Assembly: GCF_000382365.1 (NCBI RefSeq)
Contig: NZ_KB908239.1
Location: 1-34,376, forward strand
Direction of reading: 5' to 3'
Length of the DNA: 34,376 nt
Origin: Pannonibacter phragmitetus DSM 14782
Lineage (GTDB): Bacteria > Pseudomonadota > Alphaproteobacteria > Rhizobiales > Stappiaceae
Shown here: one piece after another, positions 12,082 to 33,181 of the stretch
Layout: each line of letters begins with the position of its first letter
How positions within the stretch are numbered: the first letter of the stretch is position 1
The notes under the pieces: generated by a model
Told to the model about the DNA's origin: nothing
Databases searched by the model: none
The model's input: the letters and a program-made list of their open reading frames with translations, nothing else
Program-made: the position numbers and the translations under genes

Positions 12082-15018
12082 ATGCGTATCAGCCGACTTT
12101 TCACCAAAGCCGGAGCGCCGGCATATTGCGATATTCGTTTCCGTAGGCACCAGAGCGAAGTGCGCACACAGGGCGGCAAGGTTCTGTCGCGGCAAGCTGT
12201 ATCGGAAGTGCCGGAGCGCTTTTCCCAGGTTGCAGCGGATGTGCTGTGCCAGAAATATTTCCGCAAGACGGGCGTTGCTGCATGTCTGAAGAAAGTGCCG
12301 GAGGACGGTGTCCCGGTCTGGCTGCAGCGATCGGTTCCCGATGGGGAAGCGCTCAAGTCTCTTCCCGAAGAGGCGCGCTTCGGGCCGGAAACCTCGGCAC
12401 GGCAGGTCTTTGACAGGCTTGCTGGCACCTGGACCTACTGGGGCTGGAAAACCGGCACCTTTGACGGCGAAGACGATGCCTGCGCCTTCTTCGACGAGAT
12501 GCGCGTGATGATGGCGCTTCAGGCTGCCGCTCCGAACTCCCCGCAATGGTTCAACACCGGCCTCTTCTGGGCTTATGGCATCGAAGGCGCCGCACAGGGC
12601 CACTGGCATGGCGATCCCGTCTCCGGCGAAGTCATCCCCTCCCGCACGGCCTATGAGCGTCCTCAGGTCCACGGCAGCGTCATCCTCTCGGTGGAGGATG
12701 ATCTGGTCAATGAGAACGGCATCATGGACCTGTGGGTCCGGGAGGCACGGCTCTTCAAATATGGCTCCGGAACCGGCTCCAATTTTTCACGCCTGCGCGG
12801 CGCCGGAGAGCCGCTGGACCACGGCGGCCGCTCAGCCGGGCTCCTCTCCTTTCTCAAGGTCGGAGATGTGGCTGCCGGATCACTGAGACTTGGCAGCACA
12901 ACCCGTGCTGCGGCCAAGATGGTCGTCGTGGATGCTGACCATCCGGATATTGAAGCCTTCATCGACTGGAAGGTGGCCGAGGAAGAAAAGGTCGCCGCGC
13001 TCGTTTCCGGCTCCCAGCTGGCCAGACAGTGCCTCAACCGGATCATTTCGCTGGTCAGGGCCATCAGCGGCCATCACACCACGGGCGAGCGGTTCAAGAC
13101 AGAGCTCGATGCGGTCATTCAGGAGGCGCGTGCCGCCCAGATCCCCGACAGTTTCATCGACCGGATCCTGCGCAGCGCCTCGCAGGGCCACGAGCTGCCC
13201 GAGCTGAAAACCTACGACATCAACTGGGATTCGGAAGCCTACCGCACCGTCTCCGGCCAGAATGCGAACAACTCGGTCCGGCTTCCGGACAGTTTCCTGC
13301 AGGCCCTGGAGACAGGCGGCGACTGGCACCTGTCTGCGCGCCGGACCACGGCGGCACAGGCAGGACAAGGCCGCAGCATCAGGGCCGAAGCACTCTGGCA
13401 GCGGATTGCCCGCGCGGCCTGGACTTCGGCCGATCCCGGACTGCAGTTCGATACCACCATCAACGGCTGGCACACATGCCCGGCTTCGGGCCGCATCAAT
13501 GGCTCGAACTCCTGTTCCGAATTCATGTTCGTGGACGACACGGCCTGTGTGCTCGCTTCTCTCAACCTCATGGCATTCGTACAGGTGGATGGCGAGATCT
13601 GTCTTGAGCGGTTCCGCCATGCGGTGCGGTTGTGGACGGTCAGCCTCGATATTTCCACCACCATGGCGCAATATCCTTCGCGGGCCGTGGCACATAACAC
13701 GCTGCGGCACCGGCCGCTGGGGCTCGGCTTTGCCAATCTGGGCGGCCTTATCATGTCGCTTGGCCTGCCCTATGACAGTTCCGCCGCGCGCAGCCTTGCG
13801 GCCGCGCTCACCGCCGTGCTGACGGGCACGGCCTATGAGACATCGGCGGAGCTTGCCAGAGATATGGGGCCTTTCCCTGCCTTGGCCGAAAACCGCCATT
13901 CCATGGAGCGGGTGCTGCAAAACCATGCGGCCTGCGCAAGGGGCGAGAGCGATCCGGCACACTATGATGGGGTGTGCCGGCCGCCCTACTCTGCCGGCTT
14001 TGACATGTGCCCGGACACGGACCTTGCCGCAGCTGCGGCCACAGCCTTTGACCGGGCGCTTGAGCTTGGCCGGCGCTTCGGCTGGCGCAATGCACAGGTT
14101 TCGCTGCTGGCCCCGACCGGAACAACCGGGCTGGTGATGGACTGCAGCACGACGGGCATCGAACCGGATTTTGCCCTCGTCAAGTTCAAGACGCTGGCGG
14201 GCGGCGGCTTCTTCAAGATCATCAATGCCATGGTGCCGCTGGCCTTGCACAGCCTCGGCTATGGCGAGGATGCCATCACCCGCATCGTGCAGCACATCGT
14301 CGGACACGGGTCGCTCAAGGATGCGCCGGGCGTCAATCTGAACAGCCTGCGCCAGCGGGGGGTGACCGAAGCCTGTCTCGCCCGGATCGAGGCTGCTGTG
14401 CAGGGCGCAAGCCATATCCGCGATGCTGTGAGCCAGTGGATCACCGGTCCGGAGGAACTGACCGGCTGCCTCGGAATCACGGCAGCGGAAATGGAGCAGC
14501 CGGGATTCGACCTGCTGAACTGGCTGGGCTACCTGCCGGAAGAGATCGAAGCGGCCAATGCCCATGCCTGCGGCGCACTGACCATCGAGGGGGCTGCGGA
14601 TCTGGACCCGCAGCATCTGCCGGTGTTTGACTGCGCGACGCCTTGCGGCCCCAGGGGCGTGCGCGCCCTCAGCCTGGAAGGGCACCTGACGATGATGGCT
14701 GCGGTGCAGCCCTTCCTCTCCGGTGCCATCTCCAAGACGGTCAACATGCCGCGCAATGCCTCTGTCGCCGATTGTTCCGCTGCGTTTCTCAAGGCGTGGG
14801 AACTGGGCCTCAAAGCCATTGCGATTTACCGGGATGGCTCCAAGCTGTCGCAGCCTCTGTCGGCGGGCAGTCTGGACCAGCTTCCGGCCGTCAACACAGG
14901 CGGCAGCAAGGCAGACCGGGCGGAAATGCGTGAAGAAGAAGAGACGGCTCAGTCCTCGAAGGATCAGGCCGCTTCTGCCGAATCCCCGGCTGCATCGCGC
15001 TCGCCCGTCAATGCCTGA
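12082..15018 (+). CDS. NrdJ-like class II ribonucleotide reductase homologue, shortened and lacking redox cysteines
   Basis: A 978-residue homologue of the adenosylcobalamin-dependent reductase of alphaproteobacteria, which is usually about 1200 residues. Family landmarks are clear: [14 protein letters not shown] (about 111), [76 protein letters not shown] and [17 protein letters not shown]. The radical triad Asn476-x-Cys478-x-Glu480 and Cys489 are kept. The other substrate-reducing Cys, normally in HACFIQ, is Ser199 here ([12 protein letters not shown]). The protein stops soon after KLSQPL with a low-complexity tail. It thus lacks the roughly 230-250 C-terminal residues that hold the TSCPD-type region and the cysteine pairs that take electrons from thioredoxin. 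Ordinary reductase activity therefore seems unlikely; a redundant paralogue, another radical function or a different reductant are alternatives. The 3' end overlaps the convergent EAL gene by 55 bp. Confidence 0.88.
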
Positions 15019-16556
15019 GCGAGCTCGATATAGAGTTTGCCGGGCAGCGGCGGCGCAAAGAGATACCCTTGTGCCGCCGTCACGCCCAATTCACGCAGGC
15101 GCTCCACCTGCTCGACCTTCTCAACGCCTTCGGCGATGATGCCCATGCCGAGATTGTCGGCGAGTTCCACCATCGAATCCACGATCGTGGTGGAGCTGTC
15201 ATCCGTACCGATGGCATCGATGAACATCTTGTCGATCTTGATGATGTCGATGCCCAGCTTCTGCAGATAGGCCATGCCGCCATGGCCGGTGCCCACGTCA
15301 TCCAGCGCCACACGCACGCCAAGGGCCTGGATCTCGGCGATCAGCTTGCGGGCCAGCTCCAGATCCTCCAGCGGCATGCGCTCGGTCACTTCCACCACAA
15401 GCTGCTGATAGGCGATGGCGGAGTTGCCGTAGATTTCCTTGATATCGTCGATGATCCGCCGGTCATTGAAGTGGCCCGCAAACAGATTGACCGACAGCTT
15501 CAGATCCGGGTTTTCCGCATAGAGCGGCCCAACCTCGCGGACGGTCTCGCGCATCATGATGCGGGTCATTTCAAAGATATGCCCGGTACTTTCGGCGTAG
15601 GGCATGAACTGCGCCGGCGGGATCAGGCTGCCGTCGCGGTTGCGCCAGCGCATCAGCACCTCGCAGCCGCGCAGGCTTCCGGTTTCGATATCCATGACCG
15701 GCTGATAATAGGGAATGAACTCCTTGCGCCGGATGGCGGCGGCAAATTCGTCATCCGCATCCCTGTCAGGCCGCCAGGAGAACCAGACGCCGATCGCAAT
15801 AAAGATGATGGCCAGCCCTGCGCAGACCACGGCCACCATCATCTTCAGCCCCGCGACCAGACTGATGGCGGCAGAACGCGGCACCGCAATGATGGATTTC
15901 AGCGGATAGCGGTCCGAGCGCACCTCGACCGTCAGAATCTCGTCGCTTTCCAGAAGCTCGGAGCTGAAGCCGCCGGTGGAGAACCAGGGCACATCATTGC
16001 CGAGCCGCAATTCGGCACGCCGGAAGGCCCGCAGATACTCCGGCCCCGGATCAATCGATACCGCAGCCGGTGATATTTCGGCAAAGAGCCGGGTCGAATT
16101 CATCAGGTCCCAGCTGACGATGGCAACATGGGTGCCCAGAAACTGGACGCCCATCACGCCGATGCCCACCAGCGGCGCATCCTGCTTGGCGGCCGGCAGG
16201 ATCGCCTCGCCGTTGATCTGACCGTCGGGAACAACACACATGCGCACGCCGTTGCGGTCGACAAGGCCGATGCGCTGCAGAAAGCCAAGCTGCCCGACGG
16301 CGGCCAGAAGCATCTGCCGGTCCTCGCGCGAGCAGCTGGTGGCCGAACTGCGCTCAAGGCGCTGAAGCGTGGTCACCGCATCATTGATCGCGAACTCGCC
16401 GCGCATCACATAGCGCCTGGCCATCGCATCCAGTTCGGTGCGGGCGTTGGTAATGGCATAGTTGTCGAGAACGAAATTGGCTGCGACAAGGGGCGCCAGC
16501 GCCAGCATCAAGGCGACGCAGACAGCCCTGATAAAGATCATGTAGCGTCGTGTCAT
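14964..16556 (-). CDS. EAL-domain cyclic di-GMP phosphodiesterase with periplasmic CSS-like sensor
   Basis: A 530-residue inner-membrane protein. A first transmembrane helix ([20 protein letters not shown], about 6-26) is followed by a periplasmic region of about 200 residues. That region has cysteines in ATSCSRED and VRMCVV, as in CSS-motif sensors whose disulfide state controls activity. A second helix ([20 protein letters not shown]) leads to a cytoplasmic EAL domain. Catalytic landmarks are present: the signature Glu in CEVLMRW, SVNLF, VEVTER, the paired Asp in [20 protein letters not shown] and the Gln in AAQGY. It should hydrolyse c-di-GMP to pGpG. No GGDEF domain is present. The ATG at 16556 gives the usual short cytoplasmic N-terminus; the longer frame upstream lacks support. 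It is divergent from the PfkB gene with a 124-bp shared promoter region. Confidence 0.92.
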
Positions 16557-16680
16557 TGCGCGGCCTGATTCCCGAGGGGTTGCTGACCACAATGGTACAG
16601 GCCAGTAAAAAAGAACTGAACACTCCATATGCGGCCGTATGTGCCGGCCGCAGCGGATTTACTGCCGGGAGGCGGACACT

Positions 16681-22280: not shown

Positions 22281-22475
22281 ATGGAGTGGGATCTGATCGA
22301 ACACAAATGGAAGTCGATGACACGCCGTGTACGGCCCGACTGGCCGAACCCGGCCTGCAGTGCATCACCTCCTCCGCCGCCGGATGCTCAGGACCAGTCG
22401 CCGCCCTCCGTAAACGGAAGAGCTGCGGGAACGGTGGAACAGGTTGCGCGGCCTGACCTGCCGCAGTTCAAGTGA
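22281..22475 (+). CDS. Small protein with CsbD-like N-terminus and proline-rich tail, coupled to ndvB
   Basis: A 64-residue frame begins MEWDLIEHKWKSMTRRVRPDW. The opening resembles the W-D/N-x-I-E-x-x-W-K start of longer CsbD proteins, but the usual K/G-rich repeats are replaced by a Pro-rich segment (SASPPPPPDAQD). GGAAAGGAG lies ideally before the ATG. Its TGA stop overlaps the GTG start of the cyclic glucan synthase (GTGA), so the two are translationally coupled. That coupling is the best evidence that it is real. Function unknown; it may help initiate synthase translation. Confidence 0.65.
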   Translation: MEWDLIEHKWKSMTRRVRPDWPNPACSASPPPPPDAQDQSPPSVNGRAAGTVEQVARPDLPQFK

Positions 22476-25400
22476 CTGCCGGCCAGACAGGATTGCGGTG
22501 GCGGGCCCGGTTTGAACGGGCAACCGGTATCCGGCCCCCCGTCGCAACGCCCTGGCAGGACACGGCTGCCATCCGCTCGGAGCTTTTCGGCACCGAGCGG
22601 CTTGAGCACCATGCGCTCACGCTTGCGATGGCTCAAACCGTCACGGATCAGCCCGCTCAAGGCGGGCGAGAACTGGCCAGACGTGTCAGCGAAAACGCAA
22701 GCTTCCTGCTCGGAGCCTACAAGGCCTGTGCTCTGAACCTGCAAGAAGGGCGGGCAATTTCGCCGGCGGCAGAATGGCTTCTGGACAATTTTCATCTCGT
22801 CGAAGAGCAATTCCGCCAGGTCGCGGACGATCTGCCTCATGACTATTACAGGCAATTGCCCAAGCTGTCGGCCGGCCCCTTCGCAGGCTATCCAAGGGTG
22901 CTGGGTCTGGCATGGGCCTATGTTGCCCATACGGACAGCCTGCTGTGCAGCCCTGTCCTCGCACTGTTTGTCAAGTCCTATCAAAAGGTCAGTCCTCTGA
23001 CCATAGGCGAGCTTTGGGCTGTCGCAATCACCTTGCGCATCGTCCTCATAGAGAACATGCGGCGTCTCGCGCAGGAAATCACCCGGGGCAGCGACCTGCG
23101 CAAGACGGCAGATGACATCGTCGACAGGATCTGGGCCGCAAAGCGCAACGGATCACAAGCGACTGTGCGTGAGTTCCTGGCTGCAACAGCCGGACTTGAG
23201 GACACGCTCCTGGATGAGATCATAGCCGCCCAGATCGCCAAGCGCCTCCGCGGTTTTGATCCGGCAGAGACCCCTTTGCATGTATGGCTGGAGGACAGGC
23301 TCCGCAGTCAGGGATCATCCATTGAGACCGTGGTTCAGAATGCCCAGCTGCGGCAGGGAGCCACCAGCGTCACGATGCGCAATATCGTGACCAGCATGCG
23401 CTTGGCATCGGAAATGGACTGGGCCAGCTTTGTCGAGGATGTCAGCCTGATCGACGCACACCTGCGGGCCAGTTCCGGTTTCGCCGGAATGGATTTCGCC
23501 ACGCGGAACGCCTATCGTACGGCAATCGAGATTCTGTCGCGCGGATCGCCCCTGAGCGAGATCGAAGTCACTGGCGCGGCACTCGATTTCACCGCCCATG
23601 ACGGGAGCGGTGAAGCTGGCGACCCTGGCCCTGCCCTGATCGGGACAAGGCGCAGGGAATTCGAAAAGACATTGGGCTTCAGGCCTTCCCTCCCAGTGAG
23701 GCTGGGCCGGATGCTGGCAAGCCTTGGTCTTGCCGGCTATCTGGGCGCCATCGCGCTGGCAACAGCTGGCGTTCTTGCTGCAGCGCTCTGGGCCGTCGGC
23801 ACGAGCGGGCTGGCCGTCTTGGTGCTCGCAGTCACGGGCCTTGCTGCCGCCTCCGAGGCAGGAACGGCACTCGTCAATCTGGCAGTCACCCGGACCGTCC
23901 GGCCAAAGCTCTTGCCGGGCCTCGACCTGACAGCGGGCATTCCGCCGCATCTGCGCACTCTCGTTGCCGTGCCGGTGCTGCTTTCTCACAAGAGCGATCT
24001 GCTGGATCAGATCGGGCGGCTGGAAGTGCATCACCTGTCAAGCCCCGGCGGATCCCTGCATTATGCACTCCTGTCCGATGGTCCGGATGCGCAGACACGC
24101 ACGGTACCTCAGGATGCTGAGCTGATCGCGGAAGCGCAGGCCGGAATAAAACGGCTGAATACACTTTACCCATCCAGCGAAGGAGACCGTTTTTTCCTGC
24201 TGCACCGCCATCGTCTCTGGAACCCGCAGGAAGGCGTCTGGATGGGATGGGAGCGCAAGCGGGGAAAGCTTGAGGAACTGAACAGACTGCTGCGGGGCGG
24301 AACCGGTACAAGCTTCCTGCCGGGGGCGTCCGTGCCGCAGGATGTCCGGTTCGTCATCACCCTCGACGCGGACACGCGCCTGTTGCGGGACACCGTGGCC
24401 AGCCTGATCGGCAAGATGGCACATCCCATGAACCGCGCCGTCCTTGACCCCGGCCAGCGGCGGGTCACGGCGGGCTACGGCATATTACAGCCAGGCGTCA
24501 CGCCAGCTCTTCCTGCAGGCACGCACGGTTCCCTGTTCCAGCAGGTCTTTTCCAGTCCGGGCGGGATAGATCCCTATGCCAGCGCCACTTCAAACGTCTA
24601 TCAGGATCTGTTCGGCGAAGGTTCCTTCACCGGAAAGGGAATCTATGATGTGGATGCCTTTACTGGCAGTCTGGCCGGACGGGTGCCTGAAAACACGATG
24701 CTCAGCCACGACCTGTTCGAGGGGATTTTTGCCCGCGCCGGACTTGCTTCGGATATCGAGCTCGTTGAGGACTTCCCGGTGCGCTACGACGTTGCCATCC
24801 GCCGTCAGCACCGGTGGACACGCGGGGACTGGCAGCTTCTACCCTGGCTGCTTGGAATAGGCAGGGGTAGAGACAGCACTGTCCCAGCTACCGGCCGCTG
24901 GAAGATGACCGATAATCTGCGCCGGGCAGTCGTGGCTCCATTTTCGCTGGCCTCGCTGTTTGCAGGCTGGCTGCTGCCGCTGCCTGCCGCAATTTCCTGG
25001 AACGCTGCGATACTGACCATGCTGGCGGTGCCGCAGCTGACAGGCCTGCCGTTTGCAATCCTGCCGGGACGCGCCGGGATCACGTCGCGCAGTCACTTCG
25101 CTGCCCTGCGGCAGGACGCCCGCACGGCAGTCCTGCAGATTGCGCTGGGCGCCGCGTTTCTTGCTGATACCGCCTGGCAAATGACGGATGCCTGTGGCCG
25201 GACACTTGTCCGGCTTGGACTGACCCGGAAGCACCTCCTGCAATGGGTGACAGCTGCCGACGCCGGTGCCAGTGCGCGCCCGGGATATGCAGCGCAATAC
25301 CGCAACATGGCGGGCGGGCTGGTACTTGGGCTTAGTGCAAGCGGTGCCGCTCTCGCCCTCAATCCACTGGCGTGGCCGGCTGTGGTTCTGTTCGCGCTTG

Positions 25401-28400
25401 CGTGGCTGGCTGCTCCGGCACTGGCCTACCGTGTCAGCCGCCCGTTTGTTCCCCCTCCGGAAGTCCCGCTCTCCCCTGACGATGCACTTGCATTGCGCCT
25501 CATCGCGCGCAGGACCTGGCGTTATTTCGAGAGGTTCGTGACCGCGGCAGACAATTTTCTTCCACCCGACAATTTCCAGGAGACACCGAAACCTACCGTC
25601 TTTCACCGCACCTCACCTACCAACATCGGGCTTTATCTGCTGTCGGTCACCGCCGCGCGCGACTTTGGCTGGACCGGTCAGACCGCAGCCATCGTCAGGC
25701 TCGAACAGACCTTGCAATCGATCAAACGGCTGCCCCAGTTCAGGGGGCATCTTTTCAACTGGTACGAAACCCGCGAATTGCGTGTTCTCGATCCCGCTTA
25801 CGTGTCTTCAGTCGACAGCGGGAACCTCGCCGGACATCTGATCGCGGTGGCTCAGGCCTGCCGGGAATGGCGCACGGTCCCTCTCGCCGCCTCCAGCAGG
25901 CATGCAGGGGTCGCCGATGCTCTGACACTGGCACGGCAGGCGTTGACGCCGAAAATCTCCGGTCTCGCGGCGCTGCTGGACAAGCTGGCGGCAGGCAACA
26001 CCGCCCATCATCCGTTCGAGGCCCTGTTACCGCTTGCCCGCGAAGCGGCGGATCTGGCGCTGGCCAGTTACGGACCGGATCATGAGCTTGCATTCTGGTG
26101 CTGCGCGGCAAGGGACTGCATCGCCGGACACATGGATGACGTTTGGGAAATCAGCTCCGCAAGACTTCATGCGCTTGAAGAGCTTTTCCGCCGCCTCGCC
26201 ATGGATATGGATTTCCGCTTTCTGTTCAATCCGGAAAAGAAGCTTCTTTCCATTGGTTTTTCTGTCACCACCAACAGTCTCGACCCCAGTTGCTACGATC
26301 TTCTAGCGTCCGAAGCGAGGCTGGCCAGCCTCTTTGCCATAGCAAAGGGGGATGTGGAAACACGGCACTGGTTCCGGCTTGGCCGGGCCGCGACGCCGGC
26401 CGGCGCAAGTTCCGCGCTGATTTCCTGGTCAGGCAGCATGTTCGAATACCTCATGCCGTCACTGATCATGCGGGCGCCTTCAGGTTCCGTGCTGGAACAG
26501 ACCAGCCGCCTGATCGTGGCACGTCAGCAAGACTATGGGCATGCAAACGCCATCCCTTGGGGCATCTCGGAATCGTCCTTCAATTCCCGCGATCTGGAAA
26601 TGACGTACCAGTACTCGAACTTCGGAGTGCCGGGGTTGGGATTGAAGCGGGGCCTGAGCGCAAACCGGGTCGTCGCACCTTACGCAACTGCACTTGCCGC
26701 CATGGTCGATTCAACGGCTGCGCTGAGGAATTTCGGAAGGCTGGCGGCTATCGGTGCGCAAGGGCGCTACGGCTTCTACGAGGCGGTGGACTTCACCCCT
26801 TCACGCCTGCCCGCCGGAGCCCATCATGCCATCGTACGCAGTTTCATGGCACATCATCAGGGAATGACAATTACTGCAATCGCCAACACGCTTCAAAATG
26901 GACGCCTGCGCACGAGGTTTCACAACGAGCCGGTAATCCAGGCCGCAGAACTGCTGCTGCAGGAACGGATGCCACGCGACGCAAGATCCGCTCCACCACG
27001 CGCCGGGGATGTTCCTGTTACGGCGCTCAACACCTCCGCTGCCCCCGCCGTACGCCATTTCGATGCTCCTGGGGACGGGCCGCCAACCGGCCACATGCTG
27101 TCGAATGGAAGTTATGGCGTGATGCTGACCCCCACAGGCGGCGGCTACAGTTGCTGGCGCGGCCTTGCCATCACCCGCTGGCGTGCCGATCCGTCACAAT
27201 CGACCCTTGGTTCCTTCATCTTCGTGCGTGATGTGAAGTCGGGCGGGTTGTGGTCTGCAGCAATCCAGCCTACAGGCGCTGATCCGGGCCGCCACTCCGC
27301 CACCTTCAGTGAGCATAAGGCATCATTTGTCCATAAGGGCCGGCGGTTGAGCACGACCACTGAAGTCGTGGTCTCGGCCGAGGACGATGCAGAAGCCCGC
27401 CGCGTCACACTGACAAACACAGGCCGGCACCCGCGCGAGATCGAGCTGACGTCCTACAACGAGCTTGTGCTGGCCCCGGCCGCCGCCGATCTTGCGCATC
27501 CGGCGTTTTCCAAGCTCTTCGTGGTGACAGGCTTCCTGCCTGAACTGGACGTGGTCATCGCAACCCGGCGCCGGCGTGATCCCGCCGATCCCGAGGTCTG
27601 GAGCGCGCATATTGCCGTGGTCGAGGGACAGGAGACAGCCCCCCTCCAGCATGAGACAGACAGGGCGCAGTTTATCGGCCGCGGACGCAGCATCAGGGAT
27701 GCGGCAATGGCAGGTGCCCCGCTGTCCGGCACCACCGGCGCCGTACTAGACCCGATATTCTCGCTCCGCCGCCGCATCACAGTGCCACCTGGCGGCATGG
27801 CGCGGGTCAGCTTCTGGACACTGGCCGCCAGCACGCCGGAAGCCCTTCTGGATCTGGTTGACCGCCACCGTGACCCATCCGCCTTCGAACGTGCTGCGAC
27901 CCTGTCCTGGACACAGGCGCAGGTGCAGTTGCGCCATCTGGGCGTGACACCGGCAGCTGCAGCTGATTTCCAGCGCCTTGGCGGCATGATCCTGCGGGGA
28001 GATGCAAGCCTGAGGGCAACGCGGAGCCAGATCGAGGCCGGGATGGGGCAGCGTTCCAGGCTGTGGCCCCTCGGCATTTCCGGTGATCTGCCGATCGTCC
28101 TGTTCCAGATCAGCGAAACCGAAGACGTTGCCGCCCTGCACGAAGTTCTGGCCGCCCATGAATACCTGCGGATGCGGCAACTGGATTTCGATCTGGTGAT
28201 CATAAACGAGCACGCGCCATCCTATTATCAGGACATGCAAGCTGTGATCGATGATGCCGTGCGCTCGGCACAGGCCCGTCCCCGCAGCGGCAGGAACAAG
28301 GGCCCCGCCCACGGTGCCATCCACACGTTGCGCACCACCCTGGTGTCGCCCGGTGCCCATGCCATCCTGCTGGCTGCCGCGCATGTGGTTCTTATCGCCG

Positions 28401-30919
28401 GCAGGGGCAGCATTGGCGATCAGATCGATGCTCTGACACCTGAAACGAAACGCCCCTTGCTCCCTTCATTCAAAGGCGGGGCGGCAGAGGAGGCAACCAC
28501 AGTTCCAACGCCGGAACTGGAGTACTTCAATGGCCTGGGCGGTTTTGCCGAAGATGGCCGGGAGTATGTGACGGTCCTGCGCCATGGGCAAACCACCCCT
28601 GCCCCCTGGATCAACGTGATCGCCAACCCCTCTTTCGGTTTTCAGGTCTCAGCCGAAGGCAGCGGCCATGTCTGGTCCGGCAACAGCCGGGAGAACCAGC
28701 TGACGGCATGGTCAAACGACCCGGTCTGCGACCCTGCAAGCGAAGCGCTCTATCTTTATGATCTCGACAGTGGCGCGCTCTGGACACCAACCGCGCTGCC
28801 GGTCCGGGGCAAAGGCACCTACATCGCCCGGCACGGTTTCGGCTACAGCCGGTTTGAACATGCAGAGCGCGGGATTGAAGCAGACATGTTGCAGTTCGTG
28901 CCGGTGGATGACCCGGTCAAGATCACCTGGCTGACCTTGCGCAACACCGGCAAAACCGTGCGCAGACTGTCTGTCACAGCCTATGCAGAATGGGTGCTCG
29001 GCACGTCACGCAGTACAACGGCAGCCGGCATCGTGACCATGAAGGACCCGGAAACCGGCGCAATCTTTGCCCGCAATCCCCATGCCACCGGTTTTGCGGA
29101 CAGGGTGGCCTTTGCCGATCTGGGCAGCGGAACAGCGAGCCTGACCGCAGACCGAAGCGAAGTTCTCGGCAAAGGCGGCGATATGGCCGCGCCGGCCGGC
29201 ATTGGAGCGGCGCGTTTCTCGGGGCGCACCGGCCCGGCACTCGATCCCTGTGCCGCATTGCAGCGTCTGGTGGCGCTGGAGCCGGGCGGAACAGCGACCG
29301 TGGTCTTCCTGTTTGGGCAGGCCGAAACGGAACAGGCCGCACGCAGCTTGATCCTGCGGCACCGTAGCAACGATCCGGCCAGAACCCTGAGCATCGTCCG
29401 CCAGCACTGGAACGATCTTCTGACCTCCGTTCAGGTCACATCGCCGGATCGGTCCATGGACATCCTGCTGAACGGTTGGCTGCTTTATCAGACGCTGGCC
29501 TGCCGGATCTGGGCGCGGTCGGGCTTCTACCAGGCAAGCGGAGCCTACGGCTTTCGCGACCAGTTGCAGGACGGCATGTCCCTGACTGCGCTGCGCCCGG
29601 AAATAACGCGCGCCCATCTTCTGCGGGCGGCAGGCCGGCAGTTTCCGGAGGGCGATGTCCAGCACTGGTGGCTGCCTCATTCCGGGCAAGGTGTCCGCAC
29701 GCGGATTTCGGATGACCGGATCTGGCTGGGCTACTGCGCCGCGCAATATGCGAGCGTAACGGGTGACACCTCCATCCTTGACGAGCAGGTCCCGTTCCTT
29801 GAAGGCCCTGCCCTGCAGCCTGACGCGCATGACGCGTTCTTCCAGCCGGCCGTTTCCGCGTCCACCGCCAGCCTGTTCGAGCACTGCGCCCGAGGCTTGG
29901 ACCTCGCCATCGAACTGACAGGCACCAATGGTATGCCCCTGATCGGCTCAGGCGACTGGAACGACGGCATGAACCGGGTTGGCGCGCAAGGCAAGGGCAC
30001 CAGTGTCTGGCTGGGGTGGCTGCTGATTGCCGCCATCGACCGGATGACGCCGTTTGCAGGTGAACGTAACCCTGCCCGCGCAGCCCGCTGGCACAGCCAT
30101 CGCACTGCCCTGTTACAGGCGATTGAACGGGACGGCTGGGATGGGGCATGGTACCGGCGCGGCACATTCGACGACGGCACGCCCCTGGGCTCGGCAGCGT
30201 CAGACGAGTGCCAGATCGACAGCATTGCCCAATCCTGGGCAGTCCTGTCCGGCGCCGCCAACCCGCAGCGCGCCGCCACCGCCATGGCCAGCATGACCCA
30301 ACGTCTGGTCCAGCCCGGACCGGGCCTCGCCCTGCTGTTCACCCCGCCATTCGACAGCACACCGCGGGATCCCGGCTACATCAAGGGCTATCCGCCGGGC
30401 CTGCGCGAAAATGGCGGCCAGTACAGCCATGCTGCCATGTGGGCCATCCTGGCACAATGCGGGCTGGGAAACGGGGATGCGGCAGGTGAACTGTTCTCGC
30501 TCGTAAACCCGGTCAACCATGCCCTGACCCCTGAGGCGGTTGAACGTTACAAGACCGAACCCTATGCCGTGGCCGCTGACGTCTATGCCAATCCCCAGCA
30601 CACGGGCCGCGGCGGCTGGACCTGGTATACCGGCTCGGCTGCGTGGATGCACCGTGCCGGTATCGAAGGTATTCTGGGGCTGACATGGTCAGGACCGGAT
30701 CTGTTGCTGAACCCCTGCTTTCCCAAACATTGGCCGCAGCTGAAAGCGGTTGTCCGCCTCAGGGAAAGCTCCCTCACGATCTCAATAGACAACCCCAACC
30801 AGACCGGCCACGGCATCCAGTCGGCAAGGTTGAATGGCGAAGCCCTGACGGTTGCCGGGCAGAAGCTCCGGATCCCCATGCCGAAGGGCGAGCACAGCCT
30901 GGACGTCACCATGACCTGA
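22472..30919 (+). CDS. ndvB: Cyclic beta-1,2-glucan synthase (NdvB/ChvB/Cgs type)
   Basis: A 2815-residue inner-membrane enzyme, close to the usual 2800-2870 of the family. It initiates, elongates, cyclises and length-controls periplasmic cyclic beta-1,2-glucan from UDP-glucose. The order matches: an N-terminal cytoplasmic region, transmembrane helices from about residue 410, and a GT84 glycosyltransferase core. That core shows the nucleotide-sugar Asp motif [10 protein letters not shown] (about 630), [23 protein letters not shown] and [16 protein letters not shown] (about 777). More helices (about 815-985), glycoamylase-like and carbohydrate-binding repeats follow. The C-terminal GH94 phosphorylase domain has [13 protein letters not shown] (about 2492) and [16 protein letters not shown]. 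Cyclic glucans serve osmotic adaptation and host interaction in Rhizobiales. The GTG start overlaps the preceding small gene, and no exporter gene (ndvA) is adjacent. Confidence 0.95.
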
Positions 30920-32249: not shown

Positions 32250-33181
32250 GAGGCTGCCTCAAAAAGAGGTGGGTGATTTCAACAGGTTATGATTCCTTCG
32301 GATTTGCGAGATTCGATGGAGTTCACAATGGCCTGGACCAAAATCACCCGCCGGCACTATGCCCGGCGAACGGCACGCTACGCAAGCGATATGACGGATC
32401 GGGAATGGGGGCTGGTTCAACCGTTCCTACCAATGCCGCGCCGCCTGGGGCGTCCTCGTACGACCGACTTGCGAGAGGTGGTGAATGCGCTGCTTTACAT
32501 CGCCACGACCGGTTGCCAATGGCGAATGCTGCCGAAGGATTTTCCGCCCTGCTCGACCGTCCAGCGCTATTTCTATGAATGGCGGGCATTAGGGCTGTGG
32601 TCGCGCATCAACCATCATCTGGTAATGGAGGCCCGCGAACTGGAGGGCAGAGAGGCCTCTCCGACGGCCGGTGTCATCGACAGCCAGAGCGTCAAAACCA
32701 CGGAAAGCGGCGGTATCCGGGGCTATGACGCGGGGAAGAAAATCAAAGGCCGCAAACGTCATATCATCGTCGATACGCTTGGTCTGATGGTCGGCCTCAT
32801 GGTGCACAGCGCTGATGTCCAGGATCGCGATGGTGCTCCCGATCTCCTGAAATCCATTCGCTACAGGTGGCCATGGCTGCTGCACGTCTTCGCCGATGGT
32901 GGTTACGCGGGCGGCAAGCTGAAGCGGCGGCTGAAGAAGATCGGGCGCTGGACGGTCGAGATCATCAAGCGCTCGGACAAGGCGAAAGGCTTCGAAGTCC
33001 TCCCGCGCCGCTGGGTCGTCGAACGCACCTTCGCCTGGCTCGGCAGATGCCGCAGACTGGCAAAGGATGTCGAAAAGTCCATCGCCTCATCAGAGGCTTG
33101 GATCATGATCGCCCACCTGCGCCTGATCACCAGGCGGCTTGTAAGGTACCGATATCGTTGAAGGCTTTTCGAGTCCGACTC
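32250..33181 (+). mobile_element. Complete IS5-family element, IS1031-like group
   Basis: Imperfect 17-bp terminal repeats match at 13 of 17 positions: GAGGCTGCCTCAAAAAG at 32250-32266, and the complement of 33165-33181 (GAGTCGGACTCGAAAAG). The direct duplication TTA lies on both sides (32247-32249 and 33182-33184). A 3-bp TNA duplication and about 930-bp length are characteristic of the IS1031 group. Removing the element and one TTA restores the frame of the surrounding nuclease-like gene. Confidence 0.9.
32328..33161 (+). CDS. IS1031-type transposase
   Basis: A 277-residue DDE transposase filling the element. The N-terminal DUF4096-like region has TDREWGLVQPFLPMPRRLGR and LREVVNALLYIATTGCQWRM. 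The DDE triad is visible as Asp in GVIDSQSVKT, Asp in FADGGYAGG and Glu in RRWVVERTFAWLGRCRRLAK. The ATG at 32328 (MAWTKITRRHYARR) matches relatives and has GGAG upstream; the frame is open 13 codons further. It appears intact and may be active. Confidence 0.9.
   Translation: MAWTKITRRHYARRTARYASDMTDREWGLVQPFLPMPRRLGRPRTTDLREVVNALLYIATTGCQWRMLPKDFPPCSTVQRYFYEWRALGLWSRINHHLVMEARELEGREASPTAGVIDSQSVKTTESGGIRGYDAGKKIKGRKRHIIVDTLGLMVGLMVHSADVQDRDGAPDLLKSIRYRWPWLLHVFADGGYAGGKLKRRLKKIGRWTVEIIKRSDKAKGFEVLPRRWVVERTFAWLGRCRRLAKDVEKSIASSEAWIMIAHLRLITRRLVRYRYR

Follow-up and report, generated by a model that had tools for sequence, protein, structure and literature searches.

Class II ribonucleotide reductases (RNRs) of the NrdJd type that lack the cysteine-rich domain (CRD) have been noted as second copies in certain Frankia and in a small number of Alphaproteobacteria (PMC5704485). 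There, the CRD is described as absent only from genomes that also hold a CRD-bearing NrdJd. Tetramers and hexamers do not form without it, turnover driven by TCEP needs it, and in mixed oligomers electrons pass between subunits (PMC5704485). The second active-site cysteine, conserved in all RNR classes, protonates the 2'-OH as it leaves; the third, which some class III enzymes have as well, makes a disulfide with the second in classes I and II (PMC4390871). Both cysteines are regarded as common to class I and class II RNRs. Enzymes of these two classes dimerise at helices A and B (PMC9531940). In the literature that we searched, by title and abstract opening and with most subscription journals outside its scope, there was no report of the cysteine losses described here or of a NrdJ/c-di-GMP gene pair, and no paper joining Pannonibacter and ribonucleotide reductase.

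The window, i.e., the whole stretch of 34,376 nucleotides analyzed here, is contig C25 of the 4.78-Mb genome of Pannonibacter phragmitetus DSM 14782, and the nearest named relative found was Pannonibacter indicus DSM 23407, with 94% identity at the window protein. Features of the NrdJ paralogue are collected in Table 1. Its frame of 978 codons holds no internal stop, and the protein matches PF08471 and PF02867 above cut-off, indicating a class II N-terminal domain and an RNR barrel. Residues 1-928 align with the solved NrdJ chains 7b9p and 7b9q, whose sequences (925 residues) stop near the window protein's end. Against TIGR02504 the protein scored 487.9 bits (cut-off 399.95), and against the alphaproteobacterial model PRK07562 it scored 1354.6 bits, below the cut-off of 1737. 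As the TIGR02504 score shows, annotation by models can take genes of this kind for functional B12-dependent reductases, so counts of two-NrdJ genomes may include them.

Table 1. Coordinates in the window of the NrdJ paralogue, its mapped parts and the adjoining gene.
Feature	Position	Strand	Basis or remark
NrdJ paralogue, 978 aa, without CRD	12082..15018	+	Frame; profile and structure-chain matches
P151-N-S-P154, phosphate-binding motif of the diphosphate type, retained	12532..12543	+	Motif from PMC8365446
HGSVIL, residues 197-202, replacing HACFIQ	12670..12687	+	Ser199 codon AGC at 12676-12678
Residues 204-241, predicted site of dimer helix A	12691..12804	+	General RNR anatomy, with PMC9531940
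N476-S-C478-S-E480, radical cysteine motif	13507..13521	+	Canonical motif N-P-C-S-E
Cys489, third active-site cysteine, retained	13546..13548	+	
52 residues past KLSQPL, without cysteine-rich domain	14860..15015	+	
CSS-motif EAL gene, convergent	14964..16628	-	55-bp overlap with the 3' end of the paralogue

A first-pass annotation of this DNA had described an intact frame in which HGSVIL stands for HACFIQ, the radical motif and Cys489 are present, and the redox tail is missing; all of this was borne out in the sequence. Ser199, the radical motif, Cys489, and the missing tail are common to six proteins of the same kind, for which we use our own label, type A. They occur in the five genomes of the genus that were covered (G000-G004) and in one of another genus in the same family (G006), and the window protein has 63-94% identity to the other five. 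All six have Ser (AGC) at position 199, where their six canonical partners have Cys (TGC), position 477, the Pro of N-P-C-S-E, is likewise Ser in all six, and N476, C478, E480, and Cys489 are retained throughout. Every type A protein lacks the cysteine-rich tail, and every type A genome has a complete nrdJ. The annotation had named resequencing that shows a TGC codon at position 199 or a frameshift restoring the tail as grounds for abandoning its claim; the close relatives all have Ser, and no frameshift brings the tail back. Sequencing error is very unlikely, since three named relatives that were sequenced separately, P. indicus DSM 23407 (94%), P. carbonis Q4.6, and Pannonibacter sp. SL95 (67%), have the same Ser and likewise stop early. 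When G-S-N-S-C-S-E-F/Y was searched for as a DNA pattern, it matched six of 87 family genomes, exactly the type A six. This pattern overlooks true members (G093, G193, G073, G074, and G114, which belong to the group described below, came from other searches), and paralogue counts are lower bounds, drawn from two scored candidates per genome and the best matches listed in order-wide NrdJ searches. Pattern matches in G199, where the fetched locus held no NrdJ frame, and in G621, which has an in-frame stop within the matched bases, were treated as chance. By correspondence with E. coli Cys225 and Cys462, we take residues 199 and 489 to be the second and third active-site cysteines, respectively. 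The window protein is, by this correspondence, without the more widely conserved of the two reducing cysteines, and a type A paralogue is, as far as its sequence indicates, not capable of completing canonical dithiol reduction alone.

A second, complete nrdJ, for which the first-pass annotation had advised a check, is present in the window genome on contig C13 (1238 aa, with HACFIQ and NPCSE), and a large-subunit homologue with an 824-codon frame lies on contig C2. The window protein and the complete NrdJ are 57% identical overall, with 0 and 6 Cys, respectively, in their last 60 residues. Since both retain PNSP, differing phosphate specificity does not explain the pair. The view that the paralogue is maintained rather than decaying also held. 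Nei-Gojobori dN/dS over 930 codons was 0.124-0.297 in five type A pairs (with dS above 1 in two of these) vs. 0.053-0.159 in the matching canonical pairs, which points to a gene that is constrained, less tightly than the canonical one. A decaying duplicate with no present function would fit the loss of the C-terminal domain and a dN above that of the canonical gene in 5/5 genome pairs (0.023-0.301 vs. 0.005-0.070). Set against these dN/dS values, a frame that is open in all six genomes, and the retention in all six of 307 of the 380 columns invariant in 32 canonical NrdJs, decay is the reading to which we give least credence.

Residues 204-241 are presumably the site of helix A, given general RNR anatomy. 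Compared with the complete NrdJ of the same genome, 37, 37, 34, 35, 35, and 31 of these 38 residues are identical in the six type A proteins (92% for the segment vs. 59% overall). In the window genome the count is 37/38, and residues 211-240, identical at 30/30 positions, form the best-preserved 30-residue stretch; in G006 (31/38) other stretches are better preserved. The adjacent Cys strand (196-203) is only 46% identical in type A pairs. Recent gene conversion does not explain the segment in G000 and G004, where codon sharing among its identical residues (0.57 and 0.54) is no commoner than elsewhere (0.53-0.61); it is possible in G001-G003 (0.67-0.75) and G006 (0.90). We read this identity as a probable sign of selection for pairing with the complete NrdJ; constraint on helix A could also serve homodimers. 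With the helix segment near-identical and the active-site strand diverged, the evidence leans to a partner role. Our favored reading, held tentatively and at a little less than an even chance, is that the window gene, a class II RNR paralogue under selection and without a CRD, encodes a non-reducing hetero-oligomer partner of the complete NrdJ. The paralogue would bind nucleotide and AdoCbl, and its conserved helix A segment would be the site of pairing with the complete NrdJ. The occurrence of a complete nrdJ in 6/6 genomes and the closeness of the two genes in G001-G003 and G006 speak for this reading. Since it would bring neither the second active-site cysteine nor a CRD to the mixed complex, the activity or oligomer state of such complexes would be lowered or tuned. 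A subunit without either element could occupy a place in mixed oligomers of the kind described for NrdJd without reducing. Some observations count against a partner. Retention of N476, C478, E480, and Cys489 in 6/6 is more than a purely regulatory protein needs, and the changes in the loop 1/loop 2 positions and the separate contigs of the two genes in G000 and G004 weigh on the same side.

The main rival, ranked next after the partner reading, is an active AdoCbl radical enzyme with altered chemistry, in which the Cys478 thiyl would abstract a nucleotide hydrogen and the product would be something other than a deoxynucleotide made with Cys199 and Cys489. Among the 380 canonical-invariant columns, 33 are changed in all six type A proteins, including positions of the Cys strand (196, 199, 200, and 202), of the surroundings of the radical cysteine (477, 481, and 490), and of the predicted loop 1 to loop 2 region (247, 252, 260, 263, 267-269, and 276); strand, loop, and helix names were assigned by sequence position from general RNR anatomy and PMC9531940. 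That such changes fall in the Cys strand, the finger loop, and the loop 1/2 region speaks for altered chemistry, as do purifying selection, the retained PNSP, and N-x-C-x-E in 6/6 type A and 10/10 of the related type B proteins described below. Engineered losses of this kind in E. coli RNR, however, lead to self-inactivation, and no product, substrate, or pathway neighbor was found. The lost second cysteine is also the one conserved in all classes (PMC4390871). On balance, we consider altered chemistry unlikely, if the strongest of the alternatives.

The first-pass annotation had also named relatives of the same length that keep the Cys at 199 as grounds against its claim. The close relatives all have Ser; a more distant group of short paralogues, type B, keeps Cys199 and has lost Cys489 instead. 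At least ten are present in the same order (G050, G065, G073, G074, G093, G114, G154, G167, G193, and G309), with frames of 1008-1121 codons and 48-69% identity to canonical NrdJs. They retain Cys199 (in HSCFIQ) and N-S-C-S-E, with Thr or Ser at 489 in 10/10, and nine of the ten have no Cys in the last 60 residues (G073 has one); the tail domain before the cysteine array is still partly alignable in some. Of the 380 canonical-invariant positions, all ten differ at only nine (198, 260, 267, 268, 273, 477, 489, 490, and 540). Identity to the complete NrdJ over residues 204-241 is 21-23 of 38 in the six type B pairs compared (57% vs. 55% overall), and the Cys strand is 71% identical, the reverse of type A. 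The cysteine set of type B, second kept and third absent, is thus class III-like in proteins that are class II by sequence, one copy having been checked in each of two analyses. The window copy shows the reverse. The annotation had left three roles open, a different reductant, a different reaction, or regulation; the last, as a partner, is now favored, and its comparison with formate-using class III enzymes fits type B better. In favor of an RNR in which an outside small reductant, thiol or formate, replaces the cysteine pair and CRD stand the joint loss of pair and CRD, the type B cysteine set, and the glutathione-transferase (GST) gene in eight of ten type B loci, and CRD-less NrdJd still works with DTT (PMC5704485). 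The window copy, however, lost the proton-donating second cysteine rather than the third, and none of the type A six has an orthologue of the type B GST. An outside reductant is a decidedly improbable account of the window protein in our judgment, though one given slightly more credence than decay.

Type B genes belong to a recurrent gene module. An orthologous PAS-GGDEF-EAL gene adjoins the type B gene in 10/10 loci (L093, L094, L095, L096, L046, L099, L100, L110, L112, and L113), convergent in nine and codirectional in G154; in G050 a contig end cuts this gene. The PAS matches were weak. Type B genomes contain 6-17 EAL matches each, and no EAL-query match at E 1e-6 was found at 11 canonical nrdJ loci (from the ten type B genomes and G008), covered over 8.9-16 kb each with three cut by contig ends. 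The type B GGDEF-EAL protein gave 14 matches past E 1e-150, spread over 13 genomes of a sample of 101, and 12 of the 14 were examined: five adjoin an NrdJ-like gene and seven do not. The copy of the window genome is among the seven, lying on contig C1 with no NrdJ match in the 13 kb covered there. The GST gene (~206 aa) precedes the GGDEF-EAL gene in 8/10 type B loci, the exceptions being G154, which has none, and G050, where the contig ends and the orthologue is on another contig. A GST orthologue occurs near one of the seven NrdJ-free GGDEF-EAL loci (G079) and a weak 27% match near one of the 11 canonical loci. No close GST was found in the type A genomes (best 29-36% identity; no match at E 1e-20 in G004 and G006). 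Close GSTs were seen in one of 20 paralogue-free family genomes searched (G013, 54%) and in one of 14 other genomes that were paralogue-free or had an NrdJ-free locus (G057, 50%), so GST alone is no marker of the module. With Cys489 kept, no GST orthologue, and a different EAL neighbor, the window copy stands outside the type B module.

The EAL gene beside the window copy was considered as a sign of c-di-GMP coupling and rejected. It is an immediate neighbor of the paralogue in five of six type A genomes and lies ~5 kb off in G003. Orthologues are present in 85/87 family genomes, and among 31 paralogue-free family genomes nrdJ and the EAL gene share a contig in 18 (within 50 kb in 14) and are on different contigs in 12, with no EAL match in one. 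Since this gene differs from that of type B and its position reflects inherited synteny, there is no c-di-GMP evidence at the window copy. The paralogue is directly 3' of nrdJ in G006 and ~4-6 kb downstream of it in G001-G003, and the two are on different contigs in G000 and G004. The gap between nrdJ and the paralogue in G001-G003 (L041:10308-11468, L042:9497-10573, and L043:9257-11977) contains different genes in each: G001 has an M78 peptidase there, G002 a GmrSD/NsnA-like gene, and G003 a CBASS-like set that matches cyclase and 4TM effector models. From its gene content it looks like a variable defence islet. Elsewhere in the window, a 2815-aa frame at 22472-30919 (+) with glycosyl hydrolase 94 and glucoamylase-like domains is presumably a cyclic glucan synthase, and an IS4/5-type transposase at 32289-33161 (+) lies close to the contig end.

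The position of the paralogue in G006 suggests a recent tandem duplication of the family's own nrdJ, an origin that the phylogeny disfavors. In a maximum-likelihood tree of 48 proteins, from which three distant rows (two actinobacterial NrdJs and one plasmid NrdJ) were left out, types A and B and a further copy in G079 were separated by one branch from 31 canonical NrdJs once active-site columns had been taken out (ultrafast bootstrap 96, SH-aLRT 97), with the caveat that long branches may draw A and B together. Forcing type A into a clade with nine canonical NrdJs of its own family gave a worse fit (AU p 0.020; 0.088 with a simpler model). Within the group, the tree does not set type B off from A and G079 as a single clade, and neither an A+B nor a B+G079 constraint was rejected. 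The G079 copy (L101:6480-9872, 1130 codons) combines N-S-C-S-E with both reducing cysteines, matches TSCPD, and has no cysteine array in its tail, making it a possible intermediate. Plasmid-borne NrdJs were also considered as relatives and set aside; H8, H9, H11, and H12 retain HACFIQ, NPCSE, and six or seven tail cysteines. As a separate observation, G240 holds a 1217-aa NrdJ frame (L053:709 onward) with HACFIQ and NPCSE and no Cys in its last 60 residues. It is conceivable, though in our estimation rather doubtful as a whole, that a single NrdJ-derived, AdoCbl-type branch broke the dithiol in two opposite ways and lost the recharging array. Type B would then use GST and glutathione or make a non-deoxynucleotide product, wired to c-di-GMP turnover through its dedicated PAS-GGDEF-EAL enzyme, and type A would be a dimerising partner of its own RNR.

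A natural branch that is under selection, has kept the radical cysteine, and has lost one or the other reducing cysteine raises the question of what a thiyl-radical barrel does without its own dithiol, and also whether inactive paralogues serve to tune RNRs. With the type B gene pair, a connection of c-di-GMP to a protein derived from an RNR would become open to direct test. Like type B, the window copy has N-S-C-S-E, has lost the tail cysteine array, and falls on the same side of the tree; unlike the window copy, type B keeps Cys199, lacks Cys489, has PAS-GGDEF-EAL and mostly GST neighbors, and is diverged in the helix A segment. The large subunits of betaherpesvirus RNR, reported to be without enzymatic activity (PMC11772975), offer an analogy only: there a homologue gave up reductase activity and took another role, but it is class I and viral, and its role is in host signaling. 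With class II NrdJd bearing a CRD, represented by the NrdJ of the same genome and by 7b9p/7b9q, the window copy shares the N-terminal domain and barrel, N-x-C-x-E, PNSP, and the predicted helix A segment, and it differs in Cys199 to Ser, Pro477 to Ser, the missing CRD, and a score below the PRK07562 cut-off. A further comparison is with the CRD-less second NrdJds; in contrast to the window copy, no loss of active-site cysteines is mentioned for them in the available part of the paper, yet they likewise stand beside a CRD-bearing copy and may include the type A clade (PMC5704485).
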